From NCBI GenBank assembly GCA_903944085.1, contig CAJAQO010000055.1:1-55443 (forward strand): DNA of 55,443 nucleotides. Direction: 5' to 3'. Numbering within the stretch: the stretch's first letter is position 1; each line of letters begins with the position of its first letter. The notes beneath the pieces are model-generated. The model searched no databases. It was not told where the DNA came from and saw only the letters and a list, made by a program, of their open reading frames with translations. Origin of the DNA: an uncultured Verrucomicrobia subdivision 3 bacterium. GTDB taxonomy: Bacteria > Verrucomicrobiota > Verrucomicrobiia > Limisphaerales > UBA11358. Shown here piece after piece: positions 579 through 53,936 of the stretch. Made by a program: the position numbers and the translations under genes.

Positions 579-3500
579 TCAGGGATAAATGATCCGGAAG
601 AACACCGCGCCGTTGGTGCGGTTGATCGGCATAACCAAATGGTTGGTCGCCGCCGAACCAGCCAGCGCCGACCAGTTGGTGCCGATGCCCTTGGTCAGCA
701 AATTCGTCTGCCCTTCGAGCCGCCAGCCGGTGTGATCAGCCGGCCAGCTCAAATCTAAATTCGTCCCGCCAGTCTTGAACAGCGTGAGGTTCGTGGCGAC
801 CGTGCTGGGCAAAACCACTACCTTGAAATTGTTGGTGGCGCTCAAGTGCGGGTTGACCAGATCATACGGATTGCTGTTCGTCACCACGGTGGTGAGCGTG
901 TTGGTGGTCAGCGTCTCGCTGGGCACCGGCGTCCACGAAATAGTGCCGCTGGCATTAATGCTGGCACCGGCGGGCGGCGCGATCAGCACATAGCCCGCCG
1001 TCGCGGAATGAATGTTCGGCTCCGTCGCGCCATTGCTGATGGCGAAGGGTTGAAGCAGCGTAATCGTCTGGGTTCCGATCACGCCCAGAACCGGCGCTTG
1101 ATTCACTTCCTGCACGATGATTTGGTAGAGGTTGGTGGCGCTCAATGGCGGCGTGCCATTGTCGGTGACCACGAACGCGACGAGGTTGGTGGACGGGCTG
1201 TTGGTTTGTTGTGGCGTCCAAGTAAGAATGCCCGTGGCCGGATTAAACGCCATGCCGTTGGTTGCGCCAACCAAGCTGGTCGTCAGGGTTTGCGGCGGAA
1301 TATCGGCGTCGGTGGCGAGGTTGGTGATGCTCAACGAGGTCAGTTCTTTCACCACAAACTGGTTGGAGGCCGGCGCGACCACCACGGGCCGCGCGTTGAG
1401 GACGCTCAAGACGAAATACGTCGGGAAGTAATTGGTGTTCCACGCATCGGCAAACGGCAGGGTGGCATTCGTGAAGCCGCCGGTGAACGAGCCATAGTAA
1501 AGATTGGTGAAGGAATTCCCCTGGATGGGCTGATAGCCATTGTTGAGATTGGCACTGACGGTGCCGACCAGTGCCGCAGCGCCAGCCAGGGAGATGGTGC
1601 CATTGTTGGTCAAACTATTGATGCCGATGTTTAGCGTGCCGTTGGTGAGGCTGTAAGCGCCTTGCAAACTAATGTTGCCAAGCTGGGAATCCAAGATGCC
1701 GGCATTGTTAAAGGTGACCCCGCTTTGAAACTGGCTGCTGCCGCCGCCGGAGCCGGTTTTGCGGAAGCTGCCATAATTGTTGATCTGCACGATACCACCC
1801 CAAGCATTGTTAAAAACGCTGTCATTCTGCGCGTTCCAGAGTCCATAATTGTAAATCAGCGTGTCGTTGCCGCCGCGAATTGTCCCGCTCGCCCACGTCA
1901 GCGTGCCAAAGTTCGTCACCCAAGTGCTTTCCAAGTCCATATTATTTCCAACACCCGCCACGATAACTGTGCTGTTGGTGGCGATGTTGACGATCGCGTT
2001 GTCCCAATTGCCGGCGATCCAAGTCAGCGCGCCGTTGATAACATTCGGATTGCCCACCAGATTGCCGCCGTTCAGCCAAGTGTTGGTGTCTGTCACCGTG
2101 CCGTTCAAAACAAAACTGCCTTGCGCCAGGTTCAGCAAACCCAGCGTGTTGGTGGTGACGTAGCCGCCGGTGAAGCTGCCGCCGCCGAGCAGCGCCAGTT
2201 GCAGGCCGTTGGTGCCGTTCTGCTGCACGTCAACCACCCCGGCCAGTTGGTTGAACACCACGCCGCTGGCGATAATGGTGTTGGCCACCAGTTCCCCAGC
2301 CCCGCCCGATTTGCGGAACGTGCCGTAGTTGTCAATAAACGCGACGCCGCCCCAGGCATTTTGAAATTGCCGGTCGCTCTGCGCATCCCACAAGCCATAA
2401 TTGTAGATCTCCGTGTCGCTGCCGCCACGCAGCGTCCCGCTCGCCCATGCCATCGTGCCATAGTTCGTCACCCAGGTGCCTTGCATGTCCAGGTTCCCCG
2501 CGACGCCCGCCGCGATGACCACGCTGTTGCTGGCGATGGTAACATACGCGCCATCCCAATAGCCGCCCACCCAGGTCAAAGCGCCGTGGACGATATTCGT
2601 GCCGACAAGATTGCCGCTGTTTTCCATGACATTGGTGCCCGTCACCGTGCCGTTCAAATTGAAGCTGCCGACGGAGAACACCGACAACGCCTGACTGTTG
2701 GTGGTGAAGTAGCCACCGGTAAAATTGCCGCCGCCCTGGAACACCAGTTCGCAACCGTTCGTGCCGTTCTGCACGTCAATCACCCCGGCCAGTTGGTTGA
2801 ACCCAACGCCGCCCGCAAACAAGGTGTAGTTGCCGGCATACGAACTGACCCCGCCGGATTTGCGGAACGTGCCGTAGTTGTTGAACGTCGTGCTGCCGCC
2901 AAGGGCGTCTTGGAACTGCTGATCGCTCTGGCAGTCCCACAAGTTGTCATTGTAAACGGCCGTGCCGTTGCCGCCACGCAGCGTGCCGCTCGACCACGCC
3001 ACCGTGCCGTTATTGGTCACGACCACGGCATTCATGTCCAAGTTGCCGGTGCCGCCGGCCACGAGCAAAAGGCTGTTGGGGGCAATGGTGACGAAATAGG
3101 AAGGATCCCAGTTGCCCGCCACCCAGGTCAACGCGCCTCGGATGACGTTGGTGCCCGCCAGATTGCCGGCATCCTCCCAAGTGTTGGTGCCGGTGACGGT
3201 GCCGTTGAGATTGAAATTGCCCTGAGACAAAACGGTCAAGCCAAATTGGTTGGTGGTAATGTAGCCGCCGGTCAGATTGCCGCCGCCTTGAAGCGCGAGT
3301 TCCAATCCGTTGGTGCCATTCTGCACGTCAATCACGCCGGCAAGCTGGTTGAAGAGCACGTTGCCGCCAAAAAATGTCGCGGTGGAAAATTCGCTGGCGC
3401 CGCCGGATTTGCGGAGCGTGCCGTAATTGTTGAAGAACGCAGCCGCGCCACCGTAGGCTTGGTTGTAAGTTTGATCACTTTGGCAGTCGAACAAGCCGTA

Positions 3501-6290
3501 GTTGTAAATTCCTCCGGCGTTGCCGCTGCGCAGCGTGCCGCCGGCCCACTTGACCGTGCCATTGTTGGTAATAATGACCCCATTAAAATTCATGTTGCCG
3601 CCAACGCCAACGATGAGCAAAGTGCTGTTGGTGGCGATGGTCACGAAATAGGAAGGACTCCAATCGCCACCCACCCAAGTCAACGCGCCTTGGATGACGT
3701 TGGTGCCAGCCAGACTGCCGGCGTCATCCCAGGTGTTGGTGCCGGTGACGGTGCCATTGATGTTGAAAGTTCCGATGGACAAAACCGTCAGGCCAAATTG
3801 ATTGGTGGTGATGTAGCCGCCGTTGAGATTGGCCCCGCCTTGGAACGCGAGTTCCAAACCGTTTGTTCCGTTTTGCACATCAATCACGCCGGCGAGCTGA
3901 TTGAAAAAGATGTTGCCGCCAAAAATCGTCGCCGTGGAAAATTCGCTCGCGCCGCCCGATTTGCGGAACGTGCCGTAGTTGTTAAAAGTCACGCCCGTTC
4001 CGCCGAAAGCTTGGTTGAAAGTTTGATCGCTCTGGCAATCCCACAAGCCGTAATTGTAAACCGCGCCGGCGTTGCCGCTGCGGAGCGTGCCGCTGGACCA
4101 GGAAACCGTGCCGTTGTTGGTGAGAATGACGCCGTTCATGTCGTTGTTGCCGCCGCCGGCGATGAACAAACTGCTGTTGGTGGCAATCGTCAGCGTGCCG
4201 GACAAGGCCCCGCCGCTCCAGGTGAGCGCACCGACAATCACCGGCGATCCTGCCAGCGTTCCGCTGACGAACTGCATATTCTGGCCGTTCAGCACGCCAT
4301 TGACAGTGAGACTGCCGGACAGCGTCACCAAGTTGGTGCCGACAATTGTCGTGGAAGTCGCGAAGTTGACACCATTGAAGTCCAAAAACGCGCCGCTGGC
4401 TTCGCTGTAAGTTCCGCCGCTGCTGGTGCCGCCGCCGTTGAAGTCCAGTGTGCCGCTTTGCGCGTTGACCGTTCCAGTGTTGTTGAACGCCACGCCGGAA
4501 TCTAGCAATGTCGTTCCGCTATTGCCGGATTTGATGAACGTGCCGTAATTATTGAACGTCGTGCCTGTGCCGCCATAAGCATTGTTGAAAGTCTGATCGC
4601 TCTGACAATTCCATATGCCGTAGTTGTCCACCGTCCCGCCGTTGCCGCTGCGCAAAATGCCGCTCGTCCACCAAACCGTGCCGTTGTTGGTTACGATCAC
4701 GGCGTTCAAATTCATGTTGTTGCCCGTGCCACCGTTAATGATCAAAAGGCTGTTGGTCGCAATCGTAACAAAATACGACGGGCTCCAATCGCCACCCACC
4801 CAGGTCAAAGCGCCTTGGATGACGTTGGTGCCGGCCAGATTGCCGGTGGTCTCCCAAGTGTTGGTGCCGGTGACGGTTCCATTGACGTTGAAAGTGCCGT
4901 TGCCCAAAACCGTCAGGCCAAATTGATTGGTGGTGATGTAGCCGCCGTTGAGATTACCGCCGCCTAGCAGAGAGAGTTCCAAGCCGTTGGTGCCGTTCTG
5001 CACGTCAATCACACCGGCGAGCTGGTTGAAGAGCACGCCGCCCGCATAAATCGTGGCGGTGGAAATTTCGCTCGCCCCGCCGGATTTGCGAAGGGTGCCG
5101 TAATTGTTGAACGTCGTGCCCGCGCCACCGTAGGCATTGTTGAGCGTTTGATCACTTTGGCAATCAAACAAACCATAGTTGTAAATAGCTCCAGCATTGC
5201 CGCTGCGGAGCGTGCCGCTTGACCACTTGACGATGCCGTTGTTGGTTACGATGACGCCGTTGAAGTCCAAGTTGTTGCCGCCGCCGGCTACGAGCAACGT
5301 GCTGTTGGTGGTGATGGTGACAAAATAGGAAGGATTCCAGTTGCCGCCCACCCAGGTCAAAGCTCCTTGAATAACGTTGGTGCCGGCGAGATTGCCGGCG
5401 TCCTCCCAAGTGTTGGTGCCGGTAATGGTGCCGTTGAGATTGAAATTTCCTTGCGAAAGAACCGTCAAGCCAAATTGATTGGTGGTAATGTAACCGCCGG
5501 TGAAATTGCCGCCGCCTTGAAGCGCCAGTGCCAATCCGTTCGTGCCGTTTTGCACGTCAATCACGCCGGCAAGCTGGTTGAAGACGATGCCGGGGACAAA
5601 AAATGTTGCCGTGGAAAATTCACTCGCGCCGCCCGATTTGCGCAGCGTGCCGTAATTGTTGAACGTCGTGCCGCTGCCACCGTAGGCGTCATTCCAGGTT
5701 TGATCGCTCTGGCAATCCCACAAGCCGTTGTTGACGATCCAGGCGCCGCTGCCGCCTTGGATGGTTCCGTTGTTCCACGCCACCGTGCCATTGTTCGTCA
5801 GCACCATGCCGTTCAGGTCATGATTATTCGCCGTGGTGAGATTCAGCGTGCTGCCGCCGGACAACGTCAAAATCCCGCCCAACGAACCAGCGGACCAACC
5901 GATCGTTCCTTTCAACACCGCATTGGTATTGCCGACGAGCGCGCCGCTGTCCACGGTGAACGCGCCGCTAGGATTCACCGTCAATGGCCCGTTCAGCGCC
6001 AGCGTCTGCCCAGCGAGGGAGAGCGTCACCGGTCCCGCGCCGTTGGTGCCGAGAATGATCGCGCCCACCGTCGTGGTGCCGTTGAGCGAAACCGTCACGC
6101 CGGCATTGGTGATGATGGCCGTATCGCCCGCGCCGGGAACCGTGTTGGGGTTCCAGTTGGCCGCCGTGTTCCAGCCGCCGCTGGCCGTGTTGGTCCAATT
6201 GATCGGAGCCGCTTGAGCCACGCAGCCAGCCAAGATGCCACAGCCAACGGCTCTGATGAGAAGAGTATTAAGATGACGGATGGTTTTCAT
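579..6290 (-). CDS. Giant secreted repeat protein (1903 aa), beta-helix/adhesin-like
   Basis: The reading frame is open further upstream to 6665, but I place the start at the ATG at 6288-6290. It has a good ribosome-binding site (AAAGGAG, 7 nt upstream) and begins a signal peptide (MKTIRHLNTLLIRAVGCGILAGCVAQAA). The mature N-terminus carries a NWNPNTVPGAGDTAII motif typical of secreted right-handed beta-helix or autotransporter-associated repeat proteins. Then follow about seven units of roughly 183 residues marked by GALTWVGG, VTNNGTV, NNYGTLRKSGG, FNQLAGVIDVQNGTNG and GGYITTNQFGLTVL. After about residue 1600 come two putative-Ig (He_PIG-like) domains (FNPATGILTWTP, INASGTISWTPVPSE). The last 60 residues (LSWPADHTGWRLEGQTN to FFRIIYP) are a block I associate with verrucomicrobial exported proteins and may be a secretion or anchoring module. 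There is no autotransporter barrel and no PEP-CTERM tail. The role is unknown; surface adhesin or matrix protein is an inference. Confidence 0.85.
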   Translation of the reverse strand: MKTIRHLNTLLIRAVGCGILAGCVAQAAPINWTNTASGGWNTAANWNPNTVPGAGDTAIITNAGVTVSLNGTTTVGAIILGTNGAGPVTLSLAGQTLALNGPLTVNPSGAFTVDSGALVGNTNAVLKGTIGWSAGSLGGILTLSGGSTLNLTTANNHDLNGMVLTNNGTVAWNNGTIQGGSGAWIVNNGLWDCQSDQTWNDAYGGSGTTFNNYGTLRKSGGASEFSTATFFVPGIVFNQLAGVIDVQNGTNGLALALQGGGNFTGGYITTNQFGLTVLSQGNFNLNGTITGTNTWEDAGNLAGTNVIQGALTWVGGNWNPSYFVTITTNSTLLVAGGGNNLDFNGVIVTNNGIVKWSSGTLRSGNAGAIYNYGLFDCQSDQTLNNAYGGAGTTFNNYGTLRKSGGASEISTATIYAGGVLFNQLAGVIDVQNGTNGLELSLLGGGNLNGGYITTNQFGLTVLGNGTFNVNGTVTGTNTWETTGNLAGTNVIQGALTWVGGDWSPSYFVTIATNSLLIINGGTGNNMNLNAVIVTNNGTVWWTSGILRSGNGGTVDNYGIWNCQSDQTFNNAYGGTGTTFNNYGTFIKSGNSGTTLLDSGVAFNNTGTVNAQSGTLDFNGGGTSSGGTYSEASGAFLDFNGVNFATSTTIVGTNLVTLSGSLTVNGVLNGQNMQFVSGTLAGSPVIVGALTWSGGALSGTLTIATNSSLFIAGGGNNDMNGVILTNNGTVSWSSGTLRSGNAGAVYNYGLWDCQSDQTFNQAFGGTGVTFNNYGTFRKSGGASEFSTATIFGGNIFFNQLAGVIDVQNGTNGLELAFQGGANLNGGYITTNQFGLTVLSIGTFNINGTVTGTNTWDDAGSLAGTNVIQGALTWVGGDWSPSYFVTIATNSTLLIVGVGGNMNFNGVIITNNGTVKWAGGTLRSGNAGGIYNYGLFDCQSDQTYNQAYGGAAAFFNNYGTLRKSGGASEFSTATFFGGNVLFNQLAGVIDVQNGTNGLELALQGGGNLTGGYITTNQFGLTVLSQGNFNLNGTVTGTNTWEDAGNLAGTNVIRGALTWVAGNWDPSYFVTIAPNSLLLVAGGTGNLDMNAVVVTNNGTVAWSSGTLRGGNGTAVYNDNLWDCQSDQQFQDALGGSTTFNNYGTFRKSGGVSSYAGNYTLFAGGVGFNQLAGVIDVQNGTNGCELVFQGGGNFTGGYFTTNSQALSVFSVGSFNLNGTVTGTNVMENSGNLVGTNIVHGALTWVGGYWDGAYVTIASNSVVIAAGVAGNLDMQGTWVTNYGTMAWASGTLRGGSDTEIYNYGLWDAQSDRQFQNAWGGVAFIDNYGTFRKSGGAGELVANTIIASGVVFNQLAGVVDVQQNGTNGLQLALLGGGSFTGGYVTTNTLGLLNLAQGSFVLNGTVTDTNTWLNGGNLVGNPNVINGALTWIAGNWDNAIVNIATNSTVIVAGVGNNMDLESTWVTNFGTLTWASGTIRGGNDTLIYNYGLWNAQNDSVFNNAWGGIVQINNYGSFRKTGSGGGSSQFQSGVTFNNAGILDSQLGNISLQGAYSLTNGTLNIGINSLTNNGTISLAGAAALVGTVSANLNNGYQPIQGNSFTNLYYGSFTGGFTNATLPFADAWNTNYFPTYFVLSVLNARPVVVAPASNQFVVKELTSLSITNLATDADIPPQTLTTSLVGATNGMAFNPATGILTWTPQQTNSPSTNLVAFVVTDNGTPPLSATNLYQIIVQEVNQAPVLGVIGTQTITLLQPFAISNGATEPNIHSATAGYVLIAPPAGASINASGTISWTPVPSETLTTNTLTTVVTNSNPYDLVNPHLSATNNFKVVVLPSTVATNLTLFKTGGTNLDLSWPADHTGWRLEGQTNLLTKGIGTNWSALAGSAATNHLVMPINRTNGAVFFRIIYP
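1640..5790 (-). repeat. About seven ~550-bp coding repeats in the giant protein
   Basis: The codons for the GALTW motif recur near 5341, 4791, 4210 (a divergent unit), 3666, 3112, 2564 and 2010, giving a period of about 548-554 bp. Units between 2.9 and 5.8 kb are very similar at DNA level, for example the recurrent stretch for TGTNTWEDAGNLAGTNVI. The two units nearest the 3' end of the gene (1.7-2.8 kb) and the unit around 4.2 kb are more diverged. Close nucleotide identity in phase with codons makes unequal recombination and length variation likely. Confidence 0.9.
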
Positions 6291-7533: not shown

Positions 7534-8937
7534 TTATTTCGCGCCGGTGCCGAGCAGCACCACGGGCACGGTGCGCAGCAGAATGGTGAGATCGAGCCAG
7601 ATGGACCAGTTGTCAATGTATTGGAGATCGAGCCGGACCCAGTCGCGGAAGTCGGAAATTTTGTTGCGGCCGCTGACCTGCCAGAGACAAGTGAGGCCGG
7701 GCTTGACGCTCAAGCGGCGGCGATGCGCAAGGTCGTTAAAACGTTTGACCTCGTCCACTGGTAGCGGGCGCGGGCCGACGAGGCTCATTTCGCCGCGCAG
7801 AACATTGAACAATTGCGGCAGTTCGTCGAGGCTGAATTTGCGGAGGATTTTTCCCAGCGGCGTGACGCGCGGATCATTCGTGACTTTGAAAACGGGGCCG
7901 GACATTTCGTTCATCGCAGCCAACTCGTGTTTCAACTGCTCGGCGTTGGTCGCCATGGTGCGGAATTTGTAAATGGAAAACGGCGCGCCGTTGAGGCCGG
8001 AGCGCTGCTGCCGGAACATCACCGGCCCGGCGGAAGTCAGCTTGATCAGCGCCGCGATGGCCAGCATGGGCAGGGCGGCCACCACCAGTAGCAGCAGCGC
8101 GCCGAAAAAATCCAGCAGCAGCTTGGCCACCATCTGCCAGGAGGTTTCCGGCGTGGAGCGGAACACGATGAGCGGATGCCCGGACAACTCGTCGAAACTG
8201 GCGCGGGCGATCTGTGTTGCAAAAAAATCCGCGACCAGCCACGCCTCGACGCCTTCCACCTCGCACAGTTTGATGACGTTTTCGACGCGCTCGAATTGCG
8301 CGTGCTTGGCGCTGACCAGCACGCCGCTGACGGAATGTTCATGCAGCATTTCGATCAACACTTGCGGCGCCGAGTCGGCGAGGTTGAATTCGCCGGCGAT
8401 TTCGAGATCGTCGCCGTTTTGATTCAGCAGCAGTTTGCGCAGCCGGGCCGTTTCCGCATGGCTGCCGGCCAAAATGATGCGGCGTTTGTATTGGGCTTTG
8501 GCCATGCGGCTGCGCATCGCTGCGAGGAGCAGTTCTTCTTTGCTCCACACCAGCGCGCAACTGAAGACGATGAAAATGAAAGATACGCCGCGCGGCGCGG
8601 GCGCTTTGAAATAAAACATCAGCAGCACCATGCCGACGGTGACAATTAGCGAGCCGCGCAGCAGCGGCCAAAACAGTGCCGTCCGCAAATTCACCGCCGG
8701 CCGGTTGTAAAAGCCTTGCGATTCCAGCACCAGCGGTGCCGCCAAGCCGAGCGCAAAATAAAGCCAGACTACTTTATCCGACGAAGCCCATTCTGGCGGA
8801 ATGGACTCCAGCCGCAGCCAGTTGGTGAACGTCGGATTGCTGCGCAAAGCAAACGCCAGCCAGAAGCTCGTGGCGAAAAGGCACGCGTCAGCAAGCTGAT
8901 GCACTTGAGTGCGGATTTGGCGGTCGCGTTGCAGCAT
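7534..8937 (-). CDS. Polyprenyl-phosphate sugar phosphotransferase (EPS initiation)
   Basis: A 467-residue membrane protein of the exopolysaccharide biosynthesis polyprenyl glycosylphosphotransferase family (WbaP/PssY-like). Hydrophobic segments fill the first ~120 residues, followed by a CoA-binding-like Rossmann region. A further membrane segment near 290 precedes the C-terminal bacterial sugar transferase domain. Diagnostic motifs are KFRTM (about residue 322), SLDELPQLFNVLRGEMSLVG and PRPLP, and KPGLTCLWQVSGR. The family transfers a sugar-1-phosphate from a UDP-sugar to undecaprenyl phosphate, the first committed step of repeat-unit assembly. It lies 56 bp downstream of the EpsI-type gene on the same strand, the arrangement usual for exosortase-linked polysaccharide loci. 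Confidence 0.9.
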   Translation of the reverse strand: MLQRDRQIRTQVHQLADACLFATSFWLAFALRSNPTFTNWLRLESIPPEWASSDKVVWLYFALGLAAPLVLESQGFYNRPAVNLRTALFWPLLRGSLIVTVGMVLLMFYFKAPAPRGVSFIFIVFSCALVWSKEELLLAAMRSRMAKAQYKRRIILAGSHAETARLRKLLLNQNGDDLEIAGEFNLADSAPQVLIEMLHEHSVSGVLVSAKHAQFERVENVIKLCEVEGVEAWLVADFFATQIARASFDELSGHPLIVFRSTPETSWQMVAKLLLDFFGALLLLVVAALPMLAIAALIKLTSAGPVMFRQQRSGLNGAPFSIYKFRTMATNAEQLKHELAAMNEMSGPVFKVTNDPRVTPLGKILRKFSLDELPQLFNVLRGEMSLVGPRPLPVDEVKRFNDLAHRRRLSVKPGLTCLWQVSGRNKISDFRDWVRLDLQYIDNWSIWLDLTILLRTVPVVLLGTGAK

Positions 8938-8993
8938 GAAATTCAGTGACTACAATTGTCGTTCAGCATAAGCATCCGGCGGGACAATTCAAA

Positions 8994-9713
8994 TCATTTG
9001 ACGGCCTTGGGCACCAGTTGAAATTCCGGCACCGAGGCGGCGATCAATTTTTTCATCCGTTCAAACGTGGCGTCCGCCTGGCCGGGAGCGCACACGGAAA
9101 AAAAGGTGACGTAAGCCCAGCGGTCCAGCTCGCTCTTGAACAACACGTCGTGCGCCATCCATAGCATCCGCTGCGCGTGCGACGGGGTGAAGCGGTCGGC
9201 ATCCACGAACCAATAGACATAGACGCCCTGCTCGGTGACTTTTTGGCCGTTCATTTCCCCCGTCTTGGTGGCGATCAGATGCATCACCGGCAGATCATAC
9301 GGCACCGGTCTTTCAACATGCACCTGGTCCACATGCGAAGCCGCATCGTTGATGGTCCAACCCTGAGCCGTCAGGCAAACCTGCGGCTTGTGAATGCTGG
9401 CGCGGGAACTGCCCATCAACACCACGTTGGCTAGGGTTTGAAAACCATCGTCGGTCGTGTAGAGCCGCTGGCCATAGCTGGTGTCCTGCGGCAGCATGTT
9501 TACGACGATGTCCGCCTGCGGCAGCGCTTCGGACTTGAAACCCGACAAGGCCGCCGGCAACAGCACTTCAAGATTCTGGCTGCCGGCCAGCGGGGCGGTC
9601 TTGACGCCGGGCGCGCCCAGCCGCTGGTTGGATTTGGCATGGGCCAAAACGCCCGCCGTCGCGCCGATGAGCCCGAGCACGATGAGAAACAAAATAATTT
9701 TTTGGCGGTTCAT
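8994..9713 (-). CDS. EpsI-type exosortase-associated protein
   Basis: A 239-residue protein with a single N-terminal membrane segment (IILFLIVLGLIGATAGVLAH) and a large extracytoplasmic domain. The motif IHKPQVCLTAQGW (around residues 106-118) and the later VYWFVDADRFTPSH match the EpsI/DUF3485 family, which is either a separate partner of exosortases or fused to them. Its start overlaps the exosortase stop by 4 bp (9710-9713), so the two are translationally coupled. The molecular function is unknown across the family; a link to polysaccharide/protein sorting is from genomic context. Confidence 0.85.
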   Translation of the reverse strand: MNRQKIILFLIVLGLIGATAGVLAHAKSNQRLGAPGVKTAPLAGSQNLEVLLPAALSGFKSEALPQADIVVNMLPQDTSYGQRLYTTDDGFQTLANVVLMGSSRASIHKPQVCLTAQGWTINDAASHVDQVHVERPVPYDLPVMHLIATKTGEMNGQKVTEQGVYVYWFVDADRFTPSHAQRMLWMAHDVLFKSELDRWAYVTFFSVCAPGQADATFERMKKLIAASVPEFQLVPKAVK

Positions 9714-10792
9714 GGCGCAGCGGGTTTGTCGGCCAGGGTTGGCCCGTCAGTTATTTTTTCCAGCCAGCGCGACACCAGAAACGCGCAGCCGACGGCCACC
9801 AAAAACGTGATGAAACCGAAATCCGTCTCCACTGCCTTGCCGGCGTTCTGGCCGAACATTTCCGCCACCGAGATGGTGAAGCACAGCCGCACCACGTTGC
9901 CGAGCACGGACAGCGGCGCGGCCACCAGCATCATCACCGCGCGTTTCCAGGGGGATTGAAAATTCACAAAACCGTAAATTGTGGTCAGTGCCAGCAGCGC
10001 CACCAAACTGCGGATGCCGCTGCACGCCGCCGCCACCTCATAACCGAACGTGTGCTGCGCATCAAAAAGCTGCGTGCCTTCGCGGATCAAATCCGGCGCG
10101 AGGCCGAGGTGCGCCACGATTTCGACGATCCGCGACACCATCAAACGCATCGGCAAGGTCAGCGGCGCGGAGAATTCGCCGACGGGAATACAAAACGCCA
10201 ACAGAAAAAACGGAAAAAAACTCGCCTTGAGCCAATGCCGCCCCCACGCCAAACCGGTCAGGCCATACAGTCCCAGAAAAAAACCGACGACCGAGAGACG
10301 CTGTTGCTGCGCCACAAAACCCACCAGATGCAGCAGCAGCGCAAACACGATCAGGCCGAGCGCCGGCCACCAGAGGCCGGATGGCTGTGCGAGCAATACT
10401 TTGCGCTTCCACCAGAACAGCGCCAGCACGACAAAGGGAATCAGCAAACCGTGGCCTTCATCCACCAGCGGCGAGGTGTAGATGTTGAACATCCAGGCCA
10501 ACAACGACGGCGAGTCCGCATAATCGAACGTCGCGTTGCCCAGAAACACAAACAGCGCCACCCAGGCGGCGGCTAGCGCGCCGATGAAAATTTTATTCGG
10601 CAGTTGCCGCCATTCTTCCCGGCAGCGGAAAATGAGCACCGGAACCGCTGCAAGCAATGCGGCGCTGAAGACATAAATCGGCCACGGTTTTTTCCAAAAT
10701 TCCGCGCTGGAAAAATAAAAAGCGGCACCCACCAAAATCAGAAAGGCGATTTCGTGCGGCTCCAGTCCATAGGGCAACTGCTTTTTATTCAT
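9710..10792 (-). CDS. Exosortase (360 aa), apparent His-to-Glu change at the third catalytic site
   Basis: A polytopic membrane protein of the exosortase/archaeosortase family, transpeptidase-like enzymes that process C-terminal sorting signals. Visible hallmarks are DEGHGLLIPFVVLALFWW near residues 111-128, the catalytic Cys257 in AACSGIRSLVA, and Arg302 in GNVVRLCF. The family's third catalytic residue is a His in the next conserved block, around residue 322. Here that block reads AVETDFGFITF with no His between Arg302 and the C-terminus. By eye, Glu322 takes the position. It sits downstream of the WecG/TagA gene and is coupled to the EpsI gene. A possible upstream promoter (TTGAGC, 17 bp, TATCTG) is weak. 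It may be an active variant or a catalytically altered paralogue. Confidence 0.88.
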   Translation of the reverse strand: MNKKQLPYGLEPHEIAFLILVGAAFYFSSAEFWKKPWPIYVFSAALLAAVPVLIFRCREEWRQLPNKIFIGALAAAWVALFVFLGNATFDYADSPSLLAWMFNIYTSPLVDEGHGLLIPFVVLALFWWKRKVLLAQPSGLWWPALGLIVFALLLHLVGFVAQQQRLSVVGFFLGLYGLTGLAWGRHWLKASFFPFFLLAFCIPVGEFSAPLTLPMRLMVSRIVEIVAHLGLAPDLIREGTQLFDAQHTFGYEVAAACSGIRSLVALLALTTIYGFVNFQSPWKRAVMMLVAAPLSVLGNVVRLCFTISVAEMFGQNAGKAVETDFGFITFLVAVGCAFLVSRWLEKITDGPTLADKPAAP

Positions 10793-10870: not shown

Positions 10871-11635
10871 TCAAGGGGCCGGATATTTTTTCAGCCCGGT
10901 CAACTGGCTGAAAAATTTCAGGATGAACAACGGGTTGTTGCGGCCATAGCGTTTCGCCAGCCGGCGCGGCTCGCTGCACAGGCGGTAAAACCACTCCAGC
11001 CCGCTGCGCTGCATCCAGCGCGGCGCCTGCCGCACGCGGCCGCTGTGGAAATCAAACGCCGCGCCGACACCGATCATCAGCGTCACGTCCAGCTTCGGCA
11101 GAAATTCGGCCATGAATTTTTCCTGCTTGGGCGTGCTCAAGCCCACCCACAAAATGTCCGGCTGCGCGGCGGAAATTTGTGCCTGCAATTTTTTCACCTC
11201 CTCCGCATTCAGCGCGCGGAACGGCGGCGTGTAAGTTCCCACCACCGCCAGCTTGGGAAATTTCGCTTTCAATTTCTGCGTCAGCAACTCGGCCACGCCG
11301 TCCGCCCCGCCGTAAAAAAAATGTTTTGCGCCGCTCGTCTCGCTCCACGCGCAAACATCCAGCATCAAATCTGGGCCATAGACGCGGCGCATGTCGCGGT
11401 GGCCGTTTATTTTTCCCGCCCAGACCATCGGCATGCCGTCCGGCGTGCAGAGAAACGCGCCGTTGAGAATGTTTTTGAACGCCGCGTCGTCCTGCGCCTC
11501 CATCACGCCATGCACGCCGGTGACGCAAATGTAGCCTTTGCGCCGCGCGCTCACCGCATCGGCGATGGCTACCAGCGCCGTCCGGAGATTGAGAACGCTG
11601 ATGCCGACGCCGAGGACATTGACGCGGTTAGTCAT
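10871..11635 (-). CDS. WecG/TagA/CpsF family glycosyltransferase (GT26)
   Basis: A 254-residue cytosolic or membrane-associated enzyme. The early motif VNVLGVGISVLNL, the acceptor-binding block LCTPDGMPMVWAGK, and the late block ILWVGLSTPKQEKFMAEF followed by IGVGAAFDF and RAPRW-like RQAPRWMQRSGLEWFYRL are diagnostic for the family. The family transfers ManNAc, ManNAcA or glucose-type sugars to a lipid-linked precursor. Here it most likely adds the second sugar of the polysaccharide repeat unit. Its start codon is embedded in a heptad repeat array shared with the divergent GT4 gene, and there is no Shine-Dalgarno sequence. Confidence 0.92.
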   Translation of the reverse strand: MTNRVNVLGVGISVLNLRTALVAIADAVSARRKGYICVTGVHGVMEAQDDAAFKNILNGAFLCTPDGMPMVWAGKINGHRDMRRVYGPDLMLDVCAWSETSGAKHFFYGGADGVAELLTQKLKAKFPKLAVVGTYTPPFRALNAEEVKKLQAQISAAQPDILWVGLSTPKQEKFMAEFLPKLDVTLMIGVGAAFDFHSGRVRQAPRWMQRSGLEWFYRLCSEPRRLAKRYGRNNPLFILKFFSQLTGLKKYPAP

Positions 11636-11719
11636 TTACGATTTCCGATTTGAGATTTACGATTTCAAAATTCATGCAGCGCGCAAATCGTAAATTGTAA
11701 ATCGCCAATCATAAATGAA
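11634..11719. repeat. Inverted heptad-repeat element joining two start codons
   Basis: Five 7-bp units of ATTTNNN type (11634-11668), a 16-bp core with GCAGCGCGC, then AAATNNN-type units from 11685 (one is CAATCAT). Read outward on either strand the units are AAATNNN, and the last one reads AAATG, whose ATG is the start codon: the WecG/TagA gene on the minus strand (11633-11635) and the GT4 gene on the plus strand (11715-11717). The whole 79-bp intergenic region is this element. The two arms are roughly complementary and could form a cruciform or hairpin. Confidence 0.9.
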
Positions 11720-12914
11720 ATTGTTGGTTTTTGCCCACACGCCGCCGCCGCATCACGGCCAGAGCTACATGGTGCAGCTCATGCTCGAAGGCTTCGGTGG
11801 CGACACGCGGCTGCGAAATTCCCAGGTGCCACCGGCGCTCGGCATTGAATGCTATCACGTCAACGCGCGGTTTTCGCGCAGCCTCGAAGACGTGGGCGAA
11901 TTCCAAGGGACGAAAATCTTCCTCATTCTCTGGTTTTGCGCGCAAGCCGTCTGGCTGCGGTTCCGGCATGGCGTGAAAAATTTTTATTACGTGCCCGCGC
12001 CCGGCAAGAGCGTGGCGCTCTACCGCGACTGGCTGGTGATGCTGCTCTGCCGCCCGTTTTTCAAAACGGCGATTTTGCACTGGCACGCCGCCGGCCTGGC
12101 GAAGTGGCTGGAGACGTCCACCACCATCGGTTCACGCACCGCCACCTACCGGCTGTTCCGACCGGTGAACTTGAGCATCGTGCTCTCGCGCTATAATTTT
12201 GCCGACGCGGAAAAGTTGTTGTCGCACAAAATCAGCGTGGTCAATAACGGCATTCCTGATCCGTGCCCCGATTTTGAAACCGCCATCCGGCCGCGCCGGC
12301 TGGAACAATTCGCCGCGCGGAAAAAGATTTTCGCCGGCGAAATTCCGGCCGCGCCGATGACCGTGAATGTGCTGTTTCTCGCGCACTGCACGCGCGAAAA
12401 GGGAATTTTCGCCGCCGCCGAAGCCGTCTTGCGCGCCAACCGCGAACTGGCCGCGCGCCGGCTGCCGCTGCAATTGAAACTGGTCACCGCCGGCAACTTT
12501 GTCACCGACCAGGAAAAAGCCGAGTTCGAACAGTTGCGGAAAAATCCCGAATTCGCCGCGACCGTGGTGCATTTGGGCTTTGTCAGCGGCGAACGGAAAT
12601 CCCAATTGCTGCGTGGAGCCGACCTGTTCCTTTTTCCCACGCGTTACCTCGGCGAAAACCAGCCGGTGAATTTGATTGAAGCCATGGCGTTCGGCCTGCC
12701 CATCGTCACCACGCGCTGGCGTTCGCTGCCGGAAATGCTGCCGCCCGATTATCCCGGCCTCGTCAATGATCAAAATCCGGACGCGCTCGCGGCCACCATT
12801 TTGCGCGTGCTCACCGTGAAAAGCGGCGAGGACGTCCGCCAGCATTTCCGCGAGCAGTTCACGGTGGAACGCCACCTCGCCACCCTCGCCGCTGCGCTCC
12901 GCAGTGTGGAATAG
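11715..12914 (+). CDS. Glycosyltransferase family 4-like
   Basis: A 399-residue GT-B fold protein. The N-terminus MKLLVFAHTPPPHHGQS has the glycine-containing donor-side loop. The C-terminal half contains NVLFLAHCTREKGIF, VHLGFVSGERKSQLLRGADL and FLFPTRYLGENQPVNLIEAM with AFGLPIVTT, the classic EX7E-type retaining GT4 signature (E in GENQPVNLIEAMA). It presumably adds a sugar to the lipid-linked repeat unit made by this cluster. The acceptor and donor are not predictable. Translation starts inside the last heptad of the upstream repeat element. The stop is followed directly by the next heptad element. Confidence 0.88.
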   Translation: MKLLVFAHTPPPHHGQSYMVQLMLEGFGGDTRLRNSQVPPALGIECYHVNARFSRSLEDVGEFQGTKIFLILWFCAQAVWLRFRHGVKNFYYVPAPGKSVALYRDWLVMLLCRPFFKTAILHWHAAGLAKWLETSTTIGSRTATYRLFRPVNLSIVLSRYNFADAEKLLSHKISVVNNGIPDPCPDFETAIRPRRLEQFAARKKIFAGEIPAAPMTVNVLFLAHCTREKGIFAAAEAVLRANRELAARRLPLQLKLVTAGNFVTDQEKAEFEQLRKNPEFAATVVHLGFVSGERKSQLLRGADLFLFPTRYLGENQPVNLIEAMAFGLPIVTTRWRSLPEMLPPDYPGLVNDQNPDALAATILRVLTVKSGEDVRQHFREQFTVERHLATLAAALRSVE

Positions 12915-12995
12915 ATTTACGATTTGCGAATTACGATTTACGATTGGCCTCAATCCGCGCGCAGCGCGTAAATCGTTTATCGGAAATCGCAAATG
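12915..12995. repeat. Second inverted heptad-repeat element, abutting nadE
   Basis: ATTTACG-type heptads start on the base after the GT4 stop codon and run in 7-bp phase to about 12956. A core GCGCGCAGCGCG follows, then AAATCGT, TTATCGG and AAATCGC, and finally AAATG, whose ATG (12993) starts nadE. The heptad consensus and the GCAGCGCG core are the same as in the element at 11634-11719. It fills the whole 78-bp gap. Confidence 0.9.
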
Positions 12996-14645
12996 AAAAT
13001 CGGTTTGCTCCAGCTCAATTCGACCGTCGGCGACTTCGCGGCCAACCGCGAAAAACTGCTGGCCGCCTACGCGCGGGCGGTGGCGCTCGGCGCGGAATTC
13101 ATCCTCGCGCCGGAACTTTTCCTCTGCGGCTACCCGCCGCGCGATTTGCTCCAGCGCGACGATTTTGTCGAAGCCAACCTCACGGCGCTCGCGGAAACCG
13201 CCGGCCAGATCGGCACGATTCCGCTATGCGTCGGTTTTGTGGACCGGAATGCCGAGCGTCCCGGCCGCGCGCTGCGCAATGCCGCCGCGGTGCTGCAAAA
13301 TGGCCGGATCATCTGGCGCACGACGAAAAGTTTGCTGCCGACATACGATGTGTTTGACGAAGACCGGTATTTTGAACCGGCGAAAGATGTGGCGCCGTTT
13401 GAATTCAACGGGCGCAAGCTGGGCATCACGATTTGCGAGGACATCTGGAACGACGAGGATTTCTGGCCGGAACGGCTGTATCGCGGCGACCCGGTGAAGG
13501 AATTAATTTCGCAGGGCGCGGAAATTATTTTGAATCTTTCCGCCTCGCCGTGGTGCGATGGCAAGGAACGGACGCGGCTGGAAATGCTGCGCCGCGTGGC
13601 GCATGACGAAAAAGTGCCGCTCGTGCAGGTGAACGCCATCGGCGCGAATGATGAATTGATTTTCGACGGCCACAGCGTCGTGCTGAATTCGAGCGGCGAA
13701 CTGCTGGCGCTCGGCGCGGGTTTTGCCGAGGAAATTCTCGTGGTGGATTTGAAGCAAAGCGGAAAGCGGAAAGCGGAAAGCGGAAACGAATTTCCGCCGC
13801 GCGAGCAGCTTTTGTTTTCGGCGCTGTCGCTGGGCGTGCGCGATTATGTCCGCAAATGCGGATTCAAAGCGGTGCTCGTCGGTTTGTCCGGCGGCATTGA
13901 TTCGGCGCTGGTCGCGGCGATTGCCGCCGATGCGCTCGGACCGGAAAATGTTTTTGGCGTCTCAATGCCGGCGCGTTATTCGAGCGAAGGCAGTTTGACG
14001 GACGCCGAGCGGCTGGCGAAAAATCTTGGCATCCGCTACGAAGTGCTGCCGATTGAGCCGGTGTTCAAAGCGGTCGAGGCGCAGTTGAAAAAGGTTTTTG
14101 CCGGCACCCAGCCGAACGAGGCGGAGGAAAACATCCAGTCGCGGTTGCGCGGCGTGACGCTGATGGCGCTCTCGAACAAATTCGGTGCGCTGGTTTTGAC
14201 GACCGGCAACAAGTCGGAAATGGCCGTGGGCTATTGCACGCTTTACGGCGACATGAACGGCGCGCTCGGCCCGATCGCGGATGTTTTGAAAACGGATGTT
14301 TACAAAATTTCGCACTGGGTGAACCGCGAGCGCGAAATTATTCCGGCGGATTCCATCACCAAGCCGCCGAGCGCGGAGCTGCGGCCGGATCAGACGGATC
14401 AGGATTCGCTGCCGCCGTATGAAATACTGGACGCGATCCTGGATTTTTACGTCGTGAAAAATCTCGGCAAGGCGGAGATTGTGGCGCGCGGCTTTGACGC
14501 GGCGGTGGTCAACGACGTGGTCAACAAAATCAATTTCAGCGAATATAAACGGCGGCAGGCGGCGCCGGGCTTGAAGGTGTCGCCGCGCGCGTTCGGCATG
14601 GGCCGCCGCATTCCGGTCGCGCAAAAGTTTCGGACGAAGATTTGA
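12993..14645 (+). CDS. nadE: Glutamine-dependent NAD+ synthetase
   Basis: A 550-residue two-domain enzyme that makes NAD+ from nicotinate adenine dinucleotide using glutamine-derived ammonia. The N-terminal nitrilase/CN-hydrolase domain shows the triad Glu41 (LAPELFLCGYPP), Lys112 (RTTKSLLPTYDVF) and Cys148 (GITICEDIW). The C-terminal synthetase domain has the ATP-pyrophosphatase loop SGGIDS at 299-304 and TTGNKSEMAVGYCTLYGDM. The linker (about residues 254-266) is encoded by four tandem AAAGCGG heptads, so a repeat array sits in frame within this essential gene. It is embedded among glycosyltransferase genes without an evident functional link. It has no Shine-Dalgarno sequence; the start is inside a heptad element. 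Confidence 0.97.
   Translation: MKIGLLQLNSTVGDFAANREKLLAAYARAVALGAEFILAPELFLCGYPPRDLLQRDDFVEANLTALAETAGQIGTIPLCVGFVDRNAERPGRALRNAAAVLQNGRIIWRTTKSLLPTYDVFDEDRYFEPAKDVAPFEFNGRKLGITICEDIWNDEDFWPERLYRGDPVKELISQGAEIILNLSASPWCDGKERTRLEMLRRVAHDEKVPLVQVNAIGANDELIFDGHSVVLNSSGELLALGAGFAEEILVVDLKQSGKRKAESGNEFPPREQLLFSALSLGVRDYVRKCGFKAVLVGLSGGIDSALVAAIAADALGPENVFGVSMPARYSSEGSLTDAERLAKNLGIRYEVLPIEPVFKAVEAQLKKVFAGTQPNEAEENIQSRLRGVTLMALSNKFGALVLTTGNKSEMAVGYCTLYGDMNGALGPIADVLKTDVYKISHWVNREREIIPADSITKPPSAELRPDQTDQDSLPPYEILDAILDFYVVKNLGKAEIVARGFDAAVVNDVVNKINFSEYKRRQAAPGLKVSPRAFGMGRRIPVAQKFRTKI
13756..13790 (+). repeat. Intragenic heptad array (AAAGCGG x4) in nadE
   Basis: Four perfect AAAGCGG units (13756-13783) and one degenerate unit (AAACGAA) lie in the linker between the amidase and synthetase domains. 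The array is in a region where length change is tolerable, although seven is not a multiple of three, so gain or loss of a single unit would shift the frame. Confidence 0.9.
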
Positions 14646-53383: not shown

Positions 53384-53418
53384 TAGTTGCAGGTTGTAGG
53401 TTGAAGGTTTCAGGTTTT
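53384..53418. repeat. Single-arm heptad array (AGGTTNN)
   Basis: Five 7-bp units (TAGTTGC, AGGTTGT, AGGTTGA, AGGTTTC, AGGTTTT) fill the 44-bp gap between the PfkB start (53379) and the VOC stop (53424). Unlike the other arrays there is no inverted partner arm. Confidence 0.85.
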
Positions 53419-53819: not shown

Positions 53820-53823
53820 GTAA

Positions 53824-53936
53824 AAGTCCAATGTCCAAAGTCCAAAGTCCAAAGTCGAGCGCATTGTTCGGTTTTGGGCCGGGGCCTGATTTAAAACTTT
53901 AGACTTTGGACTTTAGGCCTTAGACTTTGGTTTATG
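53824..53936. repeat. Inverted heptad-repeat element upstream of VOC and nusB
   Basis: Left arm of five AAGTCCA-type heptads (53824-53858), a 37-bp core, right arm of five ACTTTGG/ACTTTAG-type heptads (53896-53930) followed directly by TTT and the nusB ATG (53934). The arms are complementary, for example CCAAAGT against ACTTTGG. The left arm begins 5 bp from the VOC start codon. The same design is seen at 11.6 kb and 12.9 kb with a different heptad sequence. Confidence 0.9.

Follow-up and report, generated by a model that had tools for sequence, protein, structure and literature searches.

The window that we analysed is a stretch of 55,443 nucleotides from an uncultured Verrucomicrobia subdivision 3 bacterium, in which two glycosyltransferase genes are divergently arranged: a WecG/TagA/CpsF-family gene on the minus strand (10871-11635) and a group-1 glycosyltransferase gene on the plus strand (11715-12914). 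Read directly, the gap between them measures 79 bp (11636-11714). It is taken up by a heptad-armed inverted repeat of the AAATCGT type (11634-11716), in which two inverted arms of ~32 nt, each of 4.6 units of 7 bp, flank a core of ~19 bp. The left arm (11634-11665, minus strand; ATTTACG on the plus strand) reads outward AAATCGT-AAATCTC-AAATCGG-AAATCGT-AAATG into the WecG-family gene, and the right arm (11685-11716, plus strand) reads AAATCGT-AAATTGT-AAATCGC-CAATCAT-AAATG into the group-1 gene. Both outer AAAT ends thus run into a G and form the start codons of the flanking genes (ATG at 11633-11635 and 11715-11717), which overlap the two ends of the element. This bears out the original prediction of AAATNNN units read outward on both strands, with CAATCAT on the plus-strand arm as the one deviating unit, and of a final AAATG holding the start codon of each gene; the start Met is in both cases the one at which orthologues in relatives begin to align. 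The further statement that the whole 79-bp gap is made of heptads is correct for the two arms but not for the middle (11666-11684), a non-repeat core or loop whose ATTCATGCGGCGCG part is largely conserved across species at this locus. No ORF lies between the arms, i.e. the window copy is of the gene-less (miniature) form.

As RNA, the element is predicted to fold stably, with -22.4 and -23.4 kcal/mol on the two strands (z-scores of -3.21 and -3.27). However, for only 2 of the 23 pairs at this locus did RNAalifold find both sides changed; covariation is therefore weak, and a hairpin under covarying selection was dropped as an explanation. A promoter scan of the element gave one weak match (shuffled sequences, 0.3 ± 0.5), and a terminator role of the element was considered and none found. 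Elsewhere in the window, the regions 579-6290 and 7534-10792 appear by eye to encode a very large repetitive surface-type protein and, next to the element on the minus strand, proteins that resemble a sugar transferase, EpsI and a membrane protein of exosortase type.

The window holds other heptad repeats. A second AAATCGT element (12914-12994) spans the distance from the stop codon of the glycosyltransferase gene to the ATG of the NAD synthase gene nadE (12993-14645, plus strand), and this ATG, too, is made with the AAAT end of the element. Within nadE, a single 31-bp AAAGCGG arm (13756-13786, plus strand) lies in frame between the two domains, where other species carry other heptad units or none; within the genus, the linker is composed of AAAGCGG, AAACCGG, AAATCTC, CAACCGG, AAAGTCC or CAACCTT units, of other sequence, or has no array. 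A third heptad-armed element, of AAAGTCC type (53823-53928), separates a divergent glyoxalase-like gene (minus strand, by eye) from nusB (plus strand), and a GTTGCAG heptad array (53386-53417) sits in a 44-bp gap between two minus-strand genes.

The window element is one copy of a class dispersed over the genome, and not a start-codon device. At a score of ≥ 11, 92 period-7 segments were found in 817,776 sampled bases, as against 0-7 at each of ten control periods, from which multiples of 3 (codon signal) and of 7 were excluded. The 0.82-Mb sample comprised the window and contigs already known for AAAT arrays, and this preselection biases the period-7 densities; positions relative to genes should be less affected. 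The original prediction had proposed a genome-wide search for such arrays, and they do occur above chance: (AAATNNN)3AAAT returned 77 rows against 8 for the control, and the inverted pattern ATTTACG-N15-45-CGTAAAT occupied 17 places in the genome (one of which, L113, has single units only and may be due to chance) against 0 for the reversed-pattern control. An inverted partner was present within 110 bp for 49 of the 92 segments (score ≥ 13; at random positions, the 95th percentile was 9.5 and the maximum 22, reached once in 150), which gives 32 palindromic elements (median length, 84 bp). Segment length is narrowly distributed, with 39/92 at 31 or 32 nt and 60/92 at 30-35 nt, and a few long arrays, of up to 124 nt. 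There are 41 unit types among the 92 segments, AAATCGT being the commonest (12). A 193-bp inverted array of ACTGATN heptads (L093:6330-6522, contig C321 of the same genome) has the unit type of the Beggiatoaceae TAACTGA repeats. In other genomes, the AAATCGT element was recognized in 24 stretches labelled as Verrucomicrobia (including Limisphaerales), Chloroflexi/Anaerolineae, Acidobacteria, Saprospirales/Saprospiraceae, Alphaproteobacteria and Prevotella, labels which belong to MAG contigs and may include mis-binned ones; by eye, one of these (L247, Verrucomicrobia subdivision 3) is the WecG locus itself, which points to the lineage that hosts the window.

The elements keep close to gene borders. 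Of the 32 palindromic elements, 8 are inside called genes, 1 is at an edge and 23 lie elsewhere; 15 of these 23 leave ≤ 20 bp of other sequence in the gap, a size class that accounts for 0.6% of intergenic bases and 26% of gaps (binomial P of 2e-28 and 8e-5 under the respective nulls). Members of the class are found between co-directional genes (purS-purQ, fabZ-lpxA), between convergent genes and inside coding sequence. Their ends are defined: of the 34 outer ends at the 17 AAATCGT places, 28 terminate exactly with AAAT, 5 extend by one more base, as a chance match would do in one case out of four, and 1 ends otherwise. The pattern used, by demanding whole ATTTACG/CGTAAAT units, favours AAAT ends, although further partial units would have counted. 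In the 24 stretches from other genomes, the right end falls at AAAT in 11 cases, a base beyond it in 8 and at another position in 5; that pattern contained the C of CAT at one end, which favours starts and partly fixes the left ends. At 25 of the 34 ends a called start or stop codon is located within -2 to +8 bases, on both sides in 10 of the 17 places. Gene starts and ends were taken from a simple codon-usage gene caller that sometimes picks an upstream start, e.g. at 53864.

Inside called genes we counted 38 of the 92 segments, mostly single arms, open in frame; a few at the ends of called genes may be mis-called, e.g. at 53823. A 7-bp unit shifts the frame with each repeat, so that over ≥ 21 bp of array every frame passes through all seven triplets; arithmetically, therefore, a stop-free unit is open in all three frames. 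The resulting peptides, e.g. EIGNRKSEIGN and KAESGKRKAET, occur in NadE, GlmS, MutS, TrpD and others (all but NadE named by eye from sequence). Heptad palindromes of three different units occupy the mutS loop in this genome and three relatives, with both arms altered jointly; eight others have unrelated non-heptad palindromes (by eye), and L192 and L193 are empty, the site not having been located by flank search in eleven fetched loci (L189, L190, L194-L198, L201-L204). The pattern in the glmS loop is similar. By eye, the unrelated non-heptad palindromic repeats in the mutS and glmS loops (L155, L166, L178, L182, L184 and others) give the impression that several palindrome families land in the same loops.

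What these arms may belong to emerged upstream of lpxA. PF05635 is the S23p or four-helix-bundle family, encoded in the larger intervening sequences (IVSs) of 23S rRNA. Among 30 lpxA loci, five (L294, L295, L299, L303 and L310) contain a whole PF05635 gene enclosed by heptad arms; the ORF specifies 117-129 aa, matches the family with E-values of 8e-13 to 1e-17, and lies between arms with complementarity scores of 18 to 27. In L293, the arms surround a broken, internally deleted copy, which matches the L299 protein over residues 1-13 in one frame and over residues 34-58 plus 101-113 in another. Arms without a gene are present in L286, which is this genome, and, degenerate, in L298; in 16/30 loci the junction is bare (about -4 to 17 bp), and 6/30 have other sequence. 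One site thus displays the full, internally deleted, gene-less and empty forms. Moreover, the gene-less L286 and the larger, gene-bearing L303 share the AAATCGT arm unit and the flank AAATTCCC-ATG, i.e. they have common ends at the same site, as is characteristic of a MITE and its larger relative. Further MITE hallmarks are seen in elements like the window copy: they are short, have terminal inverted repeats, lack an ORF and exist in many copies. At purS-purQ, AAATCGT elements occupy 6 of 28 measured loci and 8/28 are empty at -4 to 10 bp, the remaining loci having other sequences, many of them palindromic by eye (L284 and L285, which are not purS-purQ sites, were left out).

To relate arms and gene across the genome, we compared the flanks of its PF05635 genes with those of other genes. 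The genome has 11 PF05635 matches, 10 of them over the cut-off, while 14 control genomes have none. Period-7 segments stand on both sides of 8/10 of these genes but of only 5/547 control genes of the same genome; complementary flanks were scored for 8/10 versus 8/547, and both features together for 7/10 versus 3/547. Flanks were taken from the HMM match for PF05635 genes and from 30 and 45 nt inside the called gene for controls, and three of the ten PF05635 genes lie in sampled stretches and may be among the 547 controls. The clearest copy, L320, has perfect 31-bp AAAGCGG arms on both sides of its PF05635 gene; L318 has no right-hand period-7 segment within 130 nt, and L319 carries heptads in a single orientation on both sides. 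By eye, the PF05635 gene in L321 (contig C28) has inverted hexad arms with a 6-bp GATTAA-type unit, and the S23p gene in L316 (contig C169) is preceded by an apparent complete second palindrome of the same unit family, giving three arms. For loci from across the phylum, 25 of 29 fetched were scored (of these 25, two were below the family cut-off and two near-identical): period-7 segments lie on both sides in 6/25 and on at least one side in 14/25, and flanks are complementary in 14/25. The association of arms with PF05635 is thus strong in this genome and weaker in the phylum.

We consider it probable that the window region is a gene-less, MITE-like copy of a dispersed heptad-armed S23p element. 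Such elements terminate in inverted arms, each with some four and a half units of 7 bp; full-size copies hold a PF05635 (S23p) gene between arms of the same kind, and copies are found in tight gene junctions and, in frame, in protein loops. At the window locus, the copy forms the entire divergent gap and its AAAT ends complete both ATG codons; its conservation would presumably reflect that it now carries two short 5' leaders and divergent promoters. In RNA, the arms would pair as one long hairpin, which RNase III could cut by analogy with rRNA IVSs. From the association of arms and gene, together with the filled and empty sites, we infer that the elements are mobile with the help of S23p. To our knowledge, S23p is not a known transposase; it is described as resembling the Avd protein of diversity-generating retroelements in the part of PMC10053308 consulted. 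Among PDB sequences, the L320 protein has a single match at E up to 0.001, namely 2rld, which is uncharacterized. Inspection by eye showed no target-site duplication at the 17 AAATCGT places, nor was any copy observed in the act of moving.

That one site can carry different units would also fit turnover in place. Replication slippage by 7 bp could build the arrays where they stand, with hairpin template switching keeping the arms alike and the units drifting in each species, and no movement would be involved. Units indeed differ at similar arm length in the nadE linker and the glmS and mutS loops, the purine-rich native codons of the glmS loop could have seeded AAAGCGG, and a proposal that heptamers reflect the polymerase footprint is cited in the available text of PMC4692102. 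Slippage would not, however, be expected to produce defined ends (28/34) or so narrow an arm length, nor the recurrence of AAATCGT 12 times among 41 unit types in 92 segments; it also leaves aside that arms enclose S23p genes and that empty sites exist at lpxA and purS-purQ. We regard slippage as possible but unlikely.

A role in regulation would fit the conservation of the window element. Across the 78-80 bp elements of 13 orthologous loci (this genome plus 12 relatives; start codons excluded), mean identity is 0.80, compared with 0.58 at the 4-fold sites of both flanking genes, and the element is the more conserved in 78/78 pairs of the 13 species, which are not independent. Gene conversion from other copies could raise this identity, but conservation extends to most of the locus-specific core (ATTCATGCGGCGCG), a point in favour of common descent under constraint. 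The heptads might accordingly be protein-bound, or be the divergent promoter itself, as a bidirectional array selected for this role and never mobile. A bidirectional promoter, one of the roles first offered, is plausible because the divergent gap is conserved and holds nothing else, yet the scan gave a single weak promoter match. The same class, moreover, lies between co-directional and convergent genes and in coding sequence, and it is absent from this locus in 14 of 30 relatives. That regulation explains the element as a whole is, in our judgement, improbable.

This absence is part of a patchy distribution. At the WecG site, 13 of 30 loci (this genome included) have the 78-80 bp element, two have longer forms with heptad arms (L053, L068), one is degenerate (L071) and 14 have no AAATCGT-type element. 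Among these 14, the gap measures 118-334 bp in eight, including L058, where it contains a different heptad palindrome (by eye); in one, a gap of 1157 bp holds another gene, and five have no adjacent glycosyltransferase match. WecG identity is 72-86% in loci without the element versus 79-89% in loci with the 78-80 bp form. On the WecG tree, element presence (16/30 rows) requires at least eight changes (mean of shuffles, 10.2; 51 of 500 shuffles as low), and on the NadE tree four; a single gain in one subclade was rejected on these grounds. The patchiness implies that gain or loss of the element took place more than once, or else that the genes moved. The eight element-less gaps of 118-334 bp imply that the window copy is no clean insertion into a bare junction; here, element and longer gap replace each other, in one direction or the other.

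As a short intergenic palindrome of many copies, the element could also be taken for a REP/BIME-type sequence moved by a RAYT (Y1) transposase, and the genome does contain six Y1_Tnp matches; none of these six loci, however, has a period-7 segment (score ≥ 10) within up to 1.5 kb on each side, so that the repeats expected beside a Y1 gene are lacking there. We rate a RAYT-driven element as very improbable. According to the portion of PMC3733652 used here, REP/RAYT repeats bear a GTAG or CGTC tag at one end; the outermost bases of AAATCGT-type elements are ATTT...AAAT.

The idea that ATG is the functional boundary of a start-codon-phased translation element is true to the arrangement at the window locus and at nadE, but it did not hold as a general property and we find it barely credible: called starts coincide with 6/34 ends of the 17 AAATCGT places, of 35 AAAT-type runs in the sample, 3 finish at a called start, and AAATG stands at 10.5% of 579 called starts anyway. 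Enrichment of arrays at starts is largely absent genome-wide for arrays in general. The base after AAAT at 33 scorable ends is G in 9, T in 15, C in 5 and A in 4 (by eye), and since G follows in only 9/33, ATG is not the element boundary; the boundary is AAAT, and an ATG arises where this end chances to meet a G. Of the roles offered at the outset, a mobile repeat fits best, without the ATG as its limit.

The element nevertheless contributes start-codon bases at both the window locus and nadE. Where same-genus loci have a heptad element, be it whole, degenerate or half, the nadE start is ATG in 8/8 (7/8 as AAATG); it is TTG in 9/11 orthologous same-genus loci without the element; outside the genus, 5/8 element-less loci have ATG. 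This comparison leaves out L134 and L137, for want of a resolved start, and L140, whose divergent copy starts with ATG and falls with other families on the tree. The nine TTG loci (L118, L120, L121, L128, L129, L131-L133 and L135) mostly have the TTG ~7 nt after a TAnnCT-like hexamer, which looks by eye like leaderless initiation. Upstream of nadE in L122 and L127 there is a different repeat-like stretch, of ATCTGTGTC type in L122; by eye, it extends as far as an AT-rich box (in L122, TATAAT) that lies a few bases ahead of an ATG.

The element was said to form both translation starts without a Shine-Dalgarno sequence. This is so, but it is no special feature: in 579 called genes, SD-like tetramers precede 8.6% of starts versus 8.3% in a control interval, strict SD motifs being rare (2.1% versus 0.5%), and the genome nearly lacks the signal. 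Leaderless-type promoters seem to occur in this lineage, judging from a TANNNT peak at -12 to -13 from the called starts of this genome. A leaderless promoter made of the heptads themselves was abandoned as an explanation, as the -10-like peak is at -12 and the TAAATC of the arms falls, by eye, at other spacings.

If the window region is the gene-less copy of a heptad-armed S23p element that we take it for, two puzzles meet in it. Bacterial heptamer repeats have so far been described piecemeal and without a known origin, and S23p proteins are stated in PMC4990558, in the part available, to have no known function. Arms that enclose S23p genes, and the full, deleted and gene-less series at one orthologous site, link the two and make both testable. 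Elements that lie in frame in essential genes and form the start regions of others matter for gene prediction, for the reading of protein loops that look lineage-specific and for change in intergenic regions. Among the papers listed by our search of the open-access literature, we recognized none that describes heptad-armed S23p elements outside rRNA.

One may speculate further that heptad-armed S23p elements are a broad RNA-mobile class, whose hairpin RNA would be released by an RNase III-like activity and reinserted through S23p-aided reverse transcription in place of a loop or short gap. Its footprints would be the rRNA IVSs, the Nostoc trnL P6b hairpin, the TAACTGA and STRR heptamers and, in essential proteins, the KSEIGN-type stretches inserted in frame. 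We offer this tentatively and think it rather doubtful; if true, one RNA-mobile class has rebuilt gene starts across lineages.

Several known systems resemble the elements in part. Rickettsia palindromic elements are palindromes found between genes and in frame in protein genes; they are not known to have heptad arms. The TAACTGA repeats of marine Beggiatoaceae are likewise intergenic heptamers close to starts in genomes with few canonical ribosome binding sites; in the sections of PMC4679880 compared, however, they are direct repeats of one unit type with a single inverted case, and no S23p link is mentioned there. The GGGAATC and GGGGA(C/T)T heptamers of Xanthomonas and Nostoc and the STRR heptamers, as described in part of PMC4692102, are also tandem and enriched between genes, with inverted pairs mentioned; in the same part, copy number ranges over 2 to 26 units, G-quadruplex-forming units are described, and defined ends are not mentioned. 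The elements reported here share the tandem 7-bp intergenic units of STRR and TAACTGA repeats but not a variable copy number, 60/92 segments measuring 30-35 nt with defined ends. The nearest published parallel that we came across for units replaced at the same site is the P6b stem-loop of the Nostoc trnL(UAA) intron, for which the portions of PMC4476775 and PMC3488679 at hand report heptanucleotide repeats of TDNGATT or NNTGAGT. There, too, inverted heptad arms form the stem and unit types are replaced blockwise, and TACGATT fits TDNGATT; in contrast, P6b belongs to a cyanobacterial group I intron, and those portions mention no inner protein gene.

Closest by build are the rRNA intervening sequences. 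That of Coxiella burnetii 23S rRNA, in the excerpt of PMC4990558 on which we draw, has a 28-bp terminal stem, an S23p ORF, GACAGAT heptameric repeats and excision by RNase III. The heptad elements correspond to rRNA IVSs, as that excerpt presents them, in their complementary termini of ~28 bp, the S23p gene of the large form, the long hairpin, the heptameric repeats beside the S23p start and the replacement of a small native loop by the element. They differ in that rRNA IVSs sit in rRNA genes and are excised by RNase III, a cleavage that for heptad elements is a prediction; heptad elements sit between or inside protein genes, have arms that are themselves heptad arrays and are in many copies gene-less. 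The window copy has the complementary termini of a long stem and lies between protein genes; the S23p ORF of a large form is found in its sister elements elsewhere, the copy itself being without an ORF. We do not file it as an IVS, because the defining rRNA location fails, but it is to the IVSs that its construction comes nearest.
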